Notes under the pieces: generated by a model
The model's input: only the letters and a program-made list of their open reading frames with translations
Database searches by the model: none
What the model was told of the DNA's origin: nothing
Source: Streptomyces spongiae
GTDB taxonomy: Bacteria; Actinomycetota; Actinomycetes; Streptomycetales; Streptomycetaceae
NCBI RefSeq assembly: GCF_009377185.1
Contig: NZ_VJZC01000011.1
Span: 1-60,316 of the forward strand
Reading direction: 5' to 3'
DNA length: 60,316 nt
Program-made: the position numbers and the translations under genes
Shown here: positions 8,884 to 10,310 of the stretch, piece after piece
Layout: every line of letters starts with the position of its first letter
Numbering within the stretch: position 1 is the first letter of the stretch

Positions 8884-9198
8884 TCAGTGGGCGAGCTTGA
8901 GTCCGATCACGCTGCCGACGATCAGTGTCAGGAACAAGACCTTCGGTGCGCTCACCGATTCCTGCCCGGTGGACATCGCGTAGAGGATGGTGAGGACCGC
9001 GCCGATGCCCACCCACACCGCGTACGCGGTACCGACCGGCAGGTCCCTCATCGCATAGGCCAGTCCCGCCATGCTTCCGGACAGGGCGGTGACGAAGACC
9101 AGTGAGGGGCCGAGCCGGCTGAAGCCTTCGGTCCTCCCCAGGGCCGTGGCCCACACAGCTTCCAGAACTCCCGAGACGGCAAGAACGAACCATGACAT
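8884..9198 (-). CDS. gdx: SMR guanidinium exporter Gdx (SugE type)
   Basis: A 104-residue small multidrug resistance protein with four membrane helices. The N-terminus MSWFVLAVSGVLEAVWATAL carries the essential proton/substrate glutamate E13, and GRTEGFSRL follows as in the SugE/Gdx branch rather than the EmrE branch. Gdx dimers exchange protons for guanidinium ion. The call is strengthened by a guanidine-III riboswitch immediately upstream (9211-9254). The ATG at 9198 is preceded by AGGAGGG; a longer in-frame reading to 9279 would run through the riboswitch and is rejected. A nitrilase gene lies upstream on the same strand. Confidence 0.93.
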   Translation of the reverse strand: MSWFVLAVSGVLEAVWATALGRTEGFSRLGPSLVFVTALSGSMAGLAYAMRDLPVGTAYAVWVGIGAVLTILYAMSTGQESVSAPKVLFLTLIVGSVIGLKLAH

Positions 9199-9210
9199 GA
9201 CAGCCCTCCT

Positions 9211-9254
9211 GCGGGCCGTCTTGTCGCACTCCGGGTACGGCACCCCTCGTCCGG
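9211..9254 (-). ncRNA. Guanidine-III (ykkC-III) riboswitch
   Basis: On the minus strand the leader of gdx begins CCGGACGAGG, continues with CCGTACCCGG and ends in GACAAGACGGC. These three blocks are the conserved parts of the guanidine-III aptamer and occur in the same order and spacing as in the Thermobifida fusca RNA of known structure, as I remember it. CCGG at the 5' end can pair with the later CCGG (P1), and GCCGT with ACGGC (P2), giving the class-III pseudoknot. The ribosome-binding site AGGAGGG begins directly after the aptamer and the start codon is 12 bases from its end, so ligand binding should control translation of gdx. Confidence 0.92.
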
Positions 9255-9285
9255 GAGCCACATGTTCGGGCTCCGACACAACGTC

Positions 9286-10122
9286 TCACACCCGGCGAAG
9301 AGGGGCAATCCCGCCCTCGGGCGCCGGGATACCGAGGATCCGGTCCTGGAGGACGGGCAGTTCCCTCCTGAGCGTCGTCACCGCGTCCATGTCGATGTCG
9401 GCGGTGAGCACTTCCTCGTCGTGTCCGGCTTCGGCGAGCACCGCGCCCCAGGGGTCGACGATCAGACTGCCGCCGGCCTGGTGCATGTCGGCGTGGGTGC
9501 CCGCCGAGCAGCACGCGAGGACGACCGCCTGTTCCTCCACGGCACGTGCGCGGCAGAGGATGCGCCACTGCTCGCGGCGCGTGGCCGGCCATGCCGAGGG
9601 GATGACGAGGATCTGTGTCCCCACCTCGACCAGGGCACGGAACAGCTCGGGGAAGCGCAGGTCGTAGCAGGTGGCCAGGCCGAGGTCGCCGAATTCGGTG
9701 GTGAGCGTCACGACGTCCCGGCCCGCGGCCATCCATACGGCTTCACCGGTGTCGAAGCCGTAGCGGTGGATCTTGCGGTACGTGCGGCGCAGGGCGCCCG
9801 TCCGGTCGAAGAGCAGTGCGGTGTTGTAGAGCGAACCGTCGTCAGCGCGCTCCACCACGGTCCCGGCGTGCAGCCACACCCCCGCGGACCCGGCCGCGGT
9901 GGACATGGCCCGCACGGTGGGACTGTCCACGGCCGCCGGACCGTCCACGGTCTCCGCTCCCGCCTGCCACGCGTCGTAGGCCCACGCGCCGGTCGTCCAC
10001 AGTTCCGGCAGCACCACGAGGTCGTCACCGGCCCGGGCGCGGACCAACTCGGCGGCGTGTGCCCTGCGTTCGTCGGGCGATCCCGGGTCCGAGACCTCGA
10101 GCTGGATCAGCGAGGCGCGCAT
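9286..10122 (-). CDS. Nitrilase-superfamily carbon-nitrogen hydrolase
   Basis: A 278-residue hydrolase with the full Glu-Lys-Cys triad of the nitrilase superfamily: E40 in VLPELW, K117 in RTYRKIHRYGF and C152 in GLATCYDLRFPE. The KIHRYGF and CYDLRFPELFR stretches resemble the Nit2/omega-amidase and predicted amidohydrolase branch rather than true nitrilases. The likely reaction is hydrolysis of an amide to acid and ammonia; the substrate is unknown. The ATG at 10122 is preferred (GAAAGG 8 bases upstream) over a GTG at 10131. It ends just upstream of the guanidine-III riboswitch on the same strand, so read-through into gdx is possible and a link to guanidine-related nitrogen compounds is conceivable but unproven. 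Confidence 0.87.
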   Translation of the reverse strand: MRASLIQLEVSDPGSPDERRAHAAELVRARAGDDLVVLPELWTTGAWAYDAWQAGAETVDGPAAVDSPTVRAMSTAAGSAGVWLHAGTVVERADDGSLYNTALLFDRTGALRRTYRKIHRYGFDTGEAVWMAAGRDVVTLTTEFGDLGLATCYDLRFPELFRALVEVGTQILVIPSAWPATRREQWRILCRARAVEEQAVVLACCSAGTHADMHQAGGSLIVDPWGAVLAEAGHDEEVLTADIDMDAVTTLRRELPVLQDRILGIPAPEGGIAPLRRV

Positions 10123-10310
10123 GTCCTGCACCTTTCACCAGGCATCTCTCACCACACCGCTGGTACGTTCTCATTGTTCCCGCGCTTCCGCTCGGCCGCA
10201 TCTTTGGGCATGGGGGCCGCGAACGCACTCGGCGACATCGCCACCAGCGAGGTCCATGGTGAGTAACATCCGTCGCCAACAGCGCAGTCCTTCGGAGAAG
10301 GGGAACCGCC

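Follow-up and report, generated by a model that had tools for sequence, protein, structure and literature searches.

Two of the known systems closest to the locus considered here are the guanidine-III riboswitch of Thermobifida fusca and the transporter Gdx-Clo. In the crystal structure of the former, guanidine bonds to G7, to G17 and to the 2′-OH of C6, and stacks on C6, and the T. fusca ribosome-binding site lies 16 nucleotides (nt) from the aptamer (PMC5696562; this and the other papers are cited throughout for parts of their text). A translational ON switch has a precedent in this class, by prediction (PMC5696562; PMC12186494). Crystal structures of Gdx-Clo have been described, as have the roles of residues E13, W16, S42 and W62 in Gdx proteins (PMC7695847). 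The stretch of DNA analysed as a whole (the window, 60,316 nt of Streptomyces spongiae contig NZ_VJZC01000011.1) carries on its reverse strand a guanidine-III aptamer before a gene for a small multidrug resistance (SMR) protein of the Gdx type. This leader resembles that of T. fusca in its conserved blocks, in C6, G7 and G17, in the plan of a pseudoknot and a P2 helix and in its position before an SMR gene, and differs from it in that the start codon follows the core by 17 nt instead of 31 nt. We propose, with a probability of about 0.7 and on the basis of modelled folds and of comparison with related leaders, that it would be an ON switch at the level of translation, the ribosome-binding site being locked by the P2 3′ strand of the aptamer itself when guanidine is absent.

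The aptamer itself was clearly recognized. The Rfam family RF01763 (Guanidine-III) matched positions 9276-9210 of the reverse strand with 61.1 bits, against a gathering cut-off of 36 and with an E value of 3.5e-10 for the whole window, and the match spans all 67 of the 67 model positions. It was the sole Rfam family above its cut-off within the 60 kb, and a genome-wide search for the family (11.3 Mb, 1114 contigs) gave this single match, with no second copy found. The original prediction, made from the letters alone, had named a guanidine-III riboswitch and had proposed a covariance-model search as a check, which indeed gave this match; the three aptamer blocks that it had described in order were found again as CCGGACGAG (9254-9246), CCGTACCCGG (9240-9231) and ACAAGACGG (9224-9216), and the ribosome-binding site that it had placed directly after the aptamer corresponds to the AGGAGG listed in Table 1. 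The span that it had given, 9254-8884, runs exactly from C1 of the aptamer to the end of the gene and does not include the 5′ hairpin that belongs to the Rfam model (9274-9254), which contains four non-standard pairs in Rfam's register. The H-type pseudoknot (CCGG/CCGG) and P2 (GGUGCC/GGCCC) can both be formed from the sequence, and the positions of C6, G7 and G17 hold C, G and G; the aptamer thus looks intact, with its contacts, pseudoknot and P2 kept. Its position is that of a leader, with 11 nt (9209-9199) between the end of the Rfam match and the ATG of the SMR gene.

The proposed switching structure uses the end of this aptamer. The GAC of the conserved core and the P2 3′ strand together make up GACGGCCC (9220-9213), whose complement, GGGCUGUC (9206-9199), occupies the eight positions directly upstream of the ATG. 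Folded alone, positions 9225-9193 gave a hairpin of 12 pairs that takes in both the Shine-Dalgarno site and the start codon and has an energy of -22.2 kcal/mol compared with -8.1 kcal/mol for its shuffles (standard deviation 2.3, z of -6.0), none of 200 being as stable, and the minimum-energy structure predicted for the complete leader contained the same hairpin. P2 and this hairpin exclude each other, since both need the same bases, and with the aptamer held in place, opening the site was predicted to cost 3.5 instead of 11.2 kcal/mol in the leader alone. Pairing of the Shine-Dalgarno site with the 5′ hairpin or with the front of the aptamer was rejected for the window, where the predicted ensemble pairs the site only with the stretch after the core.

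When guanidine is absent, the GACGGCCC strand would leave P2 and form the hairpin that encloses Shine-Dalgarno site and start codon; when it is present, P2 and the pseudoknot would keep this strand, so that the Shine-Dalgarno site would be freed, and the exporter would then be made and remove guanidinium. We infer that guanidine tips the balance between P2 and the hairpin. The high stability predicted for the hairpin makes it probable that the choice is made during transcription, when the 5′ part of the aptamer may already be folded before the pre-start stretch emerges.

Evidence beyond this single leader came from relatives. In all, 287 loci were read, of which 22 repeat leaders and 11 without a start were dropped, leaving 254 leaders, and a scan with the core pattern gave at least 119 stretches. 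A second set of loci (L193-L322) consisted of the best-scoring listed covariance-model matches in the class and the genus, after exclusion of exact duplicates of the first set; species may overlap between the two sets. The permutation test was applied to 146 SMR leaders with a short spacer, 95 from the first set and 51 from the second; 17 further short-spacer leaders without an SMR start by motif stood outside this number (seven with a ureohydrolase-like gene, three with another family, four with a shifted SMR start, one with a masked SMR and two in which another frame was chosen).

Pairing between the aptamer strand and the pre-start stretch was indeed better with a leader's own partner than with a swapped one, a result reached by 2 of 5000 permutations for 67 distinct pairs and by none of 5000 for all 146 SMR leaders, for the first set or for the second. 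With one leader kept per protein cluster, the corresponding counts were 0 of 5000 at 80% identity (n = 85), 45 of 5000 at 70% (n = 18) and 16 of 5000 at 65% (n = 10). When the pairing rules themselves were permuted, Watson-Crick came first of 24 both in own score and in z, although the latter was modest (1.85). For 84 canonical leaders whose start lies 14-19 nt downstream of the core, 66.8% of cells paired in the register of the window, as opposed to 30-48% in five shifted registers. Conservation was concentrated next to the start codon, with 1.0-1.1 bits of information at positions -3 to -1, 0.2-0.5 at -4 to -6 and a Shine-Dalgarno peak of 1.5, and GUC preceded ATG in 34 of 74 leaders versus 6 of 173 background starts, a comparison uncorrected for relatedness. 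Aptamers with GACUG in place of GACGG had A at -4 in 7 of 13 cases, compared with 18 of 150, and in one of these seven leaders (L281) the pairs next to this position do not form. Pairing of the aptamer's GAC immediately upstream of the start was predicted for 96 of the 146 short-spacer leaders, 45 of 50 leaders of the CCCG type described below and 6 of 41 long-spacer leaders.

Other results weigh against the proposed switch. Treated as a rigid eight-pair helix in 44 leaders, the pairing occupied 59.9% of cells, hardly above the 56.8% of shuffled ones (none of 500 shuffles reached 59.9%), while a slide of +3 paired 58.2% of cells with a covariation score of 0.141 versus 0.126, and three inner pairs failed in more than half of these leaders. 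Folding gave a z below -2 in just 56 of the 146 short-spacer leaders, and a shuffle of the spacer gave p ≤ 0.05 in just 20 of 81. At 65% clustering, GUC preceded the start in just 2 of 10 leaders; it is missing in the seven loci with a ureohydrolase-like gene, where the switching structure must therefore differ. The T. fusca leader (L040) has no hairpin between the P2 strand and the pre-start stretch (z of 0.74). In the window itself, the fold of the whole leader was only mildly better than its shuffles (z of -2.1, 6 of 200 as good); with the coding sequence included, holding the aptamer lowered the opening cost just from 14.8 to 9.9 kcal/mol, because other pairs then cover the site; and the lock may leak, since the hairpin loop contains four of the six bases of AGGAGG. 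Taken together, the proposed platform has strong backing in the window and close relatives, is probable for the short-spacer form and is not general for the class. As for the short-spacer guanidine-III form, which is common in Actinomycetes, we regard it as reasonably probable that the aptamer is its own expression platform, the P2 3′ strand being an anti-Shine-Dalgarno strand that would have co-evolved with the pre-start GUC-AUG, so that ligand binding and site locking would compete for the same nucleotides.

Table 1. Positions of the aptamer parts, the proposed hairpin and the flanking genes in the window.
Feature	Positions	Strand	Basis
Guanidine-III aptamer, full Rfam model	9210..9276	-	RF01763, 61.1 bits
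5′ hairpin of the Rfam model; final base doubles as pseudoknot C1	9254..9274	-	minimum-energy fold
Pseudoknot helix, 5′ strand CCGG (C1-G4)	9251..9254	-	sequence; complementary to 9234-9231
Pseudoknot helix, 3′ strand CCGG	9231..9234	-	sequence
Ligand contacts C6 (9249) and G7 (9248)	9248..9249	-	T. fusca crystal numbering (PMC5696562) mapped by sequence
Ligand contact G17	9238	-	T. fusca crystal numbering (PMC5696562) mapped by sequence
P2 5′ strand GGUGCC, with a probable bulge of the U at 9242	9239..9244	-	sequence; partner 9217-9213
P2 3′ strand GGCCC, common to the proposed Shine-Dalgarno hairpin	9213..9217	-	sequence
Proposed ligand-free hairpin, GACA/UGUC plus GACGGCCC/GGGCUGUC, loop GCAGGA (9212-9207)	9194..9225	-	predicted fold
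Shine-Dalgarno site AGGAGG	9205..9210	-	sequence; 6 nt before ATG (9198-9196)
Gdx-type SMR gene, 104 amino acids	8884..9198	-	PF00893; PDB 6wk5 group
Carbon-nitrogen hydrolase gene, amidase-like	9286..10131	-	PF00795, 162.4 bits; ends 9 nt before the aptamer

The same leader might also be an ON switch that acts chiefly by shielding the mRNA against RNase E-type decay, or by way of some other competing structure, the GACGGCCC/GGGCUGUC pairing being incidental. The lack of a strong hairpin in many relatives, and the different arrangement in T. fusca, are what such a mechanism would lead one to expect; we nevertheless consider it unlikely, in view of a window hairpin that lies far beyond its shuffles and occupies the same bases as P2, and of a pairing that tracks changes in the aptamer strand. 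It is quite improbable, moreover, that the aptamer is a relic or does not switch, the gene being expressed together with the hydrolase and guanidine being without effect: ligand contacts, pseudoknot and P2 are all intact, the gene frame is intact as well, and L126, whose protein is the most similar (83%), has a matching spacing and hairpin. Such a loss of function would agree with the position of the aptamer 9 nt behind a gene without a conserved link to the riboswitch, with the lack of a promoter-like site (no sigma-70-type promoter was found around the aptamer, a test of little power in a genome of this kind) and with the rarity of the window's exact canonical core, found, among 392 genomes sampled from the genus, in just 8, its own included.

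The protein bears on a third possibility, that of a Qac-type multidrug exporter in place of a guanidinium exporter. The product matched PF00893 with 82.8 bits (cut-off 23.7) and aligned without gaps, over residues 1-102, with a chain of PDB entry 6wk5, which we take to be Gdx-Clo (E value of 4.7e-19, 71.6 bits, versus 40.2 bits with the best EmrE chain); G10, E13, W16, S42, Y59, W62 and K101 are common to both in this alignment. W16 is conserved in Gdx proteins, Gly or Ala occurring there in the Qac subtype (PMC7695847), and among riboswitch-linked SMR proteins of at least 100 amino acids E13 was kept in 236 of 236 and W16 in 229 of 236, the other seven having Met at position 16. The Qac interpretation could draw on weak matches to Qac models, of up to 53.7 bits, and on the promiscuity of Gdx proteins themselves (PMC7695847), but is very improbable in view of W16 and of the difference between 71.6 and 40.2 bits. 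Assignment to the Gdx subtype is well supported by sequence, in line with the predicted SugE-branch gene: the nearest solved structures, the residues E13, W16, S42 and W62, and the SugE model, best of the 21 NCBIfam models listed with 105.8 bits (next 53.7 bits), all agree. As this score lies below the cut-off of 126 of the SugE equivalog model (NF008512), the product is filed as Gdx subtype only and not as this equivalog. Its substrate, unlike that of Gdx-Clo, is predicted from sequence. The claim that the RNA fixes the substrate as guanidinium went too far, because the ligands of the guanidine-III class also include methyl-, amino- and ethylguanidine and agmatine (PMC5696562) and Gdx-Clo also transports hydrophobic guanidinyl compounds (PMC7695847).

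The genome has five SMR genes, and no second riboswitch-linked one was found among these five. Two adjacent SMR genes at G000:C833:204-961 (reverse strand) possibly form a paired (heteromeric) SMR, and have no guanidine-III match there. The gdx frame is open upstream through the whole aptamer (9285-9199, reverse strand) and in frame with the hydrolase, whose stop codon lies between; a 131-amino-acid open reading frame from a GTG at 9279 through the aptamer is probably due to chance in a G+C-rich genome.

The upstream hydrolase gene does not look like a conserved partner of the riboswitch. The window was alone among 149 riboswitch loci in having it upstream, and 29 other loci with a relative of this hydrolase gave no gdx match in the flanks covered. 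Flanks were ≤1.5 kb in some loci and some cores lie near the locus end, so that limited reach partly accounts for the absence of a neighbour. One locus (L065) has a relative with 35% identity, on the downstream side. A hydrolase-gdx partnership was thus rejected, the neighbourhood not being found in other loci examined, as was an upstream hydrolase in L030, hinted at by a shared C-terminal APLRR, for which tblastn found none. The riboswitch transcript probably begins in or before the hydrolase gene, because only 9 nt separate the stop codon of the latter from the aptamer.

Among genomes of the genus, 168 of the 199 sampled had a Guanidine-III match at E ≤ 0.001, which exceeded the cut-off in 163; the taxonomic class gave such matches in 175 of 394 sampled genomes (59 of 137 genera). 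Over the 100 bases compared, the leader of a genome of this genus (L123, G148) is like that of S. naganishii (L045), in line with a probable assignment of the genus to Streptomyces. Directly behind the aptamer, 145 of 149 loci had a gdx relative; the remaining four comprised two that end just after the aptamer (L022, L026), one with a partial match (L053) and one with another gene (L065). Many relatives in the genus have a CCCG/CGGG pseudoknot, in which both strands are altered and pairing is kept (17 of 129 distinct leaders, and 50 of 254 after the second set was added). This variant is common in the genus, the window having the rarer canonical form; it occurs with ACAAGACGA, a long spacer and the SMR subtype LEVGWSIGMK in L127, L130, L132, L133, L135-L138, L140-L142 and L144-L149. 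It resembles the window in belonging to the same class by Rfam score and in standing before an SMR gene, shows GUC just upstream of the start codon in 45 of 50 distinct leaders, and differs in the change of both pseudoknot strands, in spacers of usually 36-45 nt and, in the rows seen, in the SMR subtype. One strongly changed aptamer (L143, genome G187), with a GCGG...CCGC pseudoknot, CAGU/ACUG in P2 and five pattern mismatches, stands before a Gdx-like gene.

Other genes also follow guanidine-III aptamers. In three loci of the same genus (L286, L291 and L301, from genomes G016, G153 and G101), the downstream gene is a candidate metallo-beta-lactamase-fold hydrolase, by its HTHAHxDH motif, and not an SMR gene, and GGCGUC precedes the ATG in all three. 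A gene that appears ureohydrolase-like by motif follows in L065 (a Mycobacterium contig), L193, L197, L199, L201, L202 and L209, and a gene for a small predicted membrane protein (SLLILAFRRV or SLLILAAFAG), non-SMR by motif, in L211, L229 and L252.

The pairing of riboswitch and exporter is in itself an ordinary one and belongs to established guanidine biology. What is added here is a concrete candidate switching structure for a class whose platform is left as "competing structures" in the cited part of PMC5696562 and called predicted in that of PMC12186494. If the proposal is true, this leader would be a very compact translational switch, the presence of GUC directly before the start in so many of these genes would be accounted for, and one aptamer would be able to work with more than one kind of platform.
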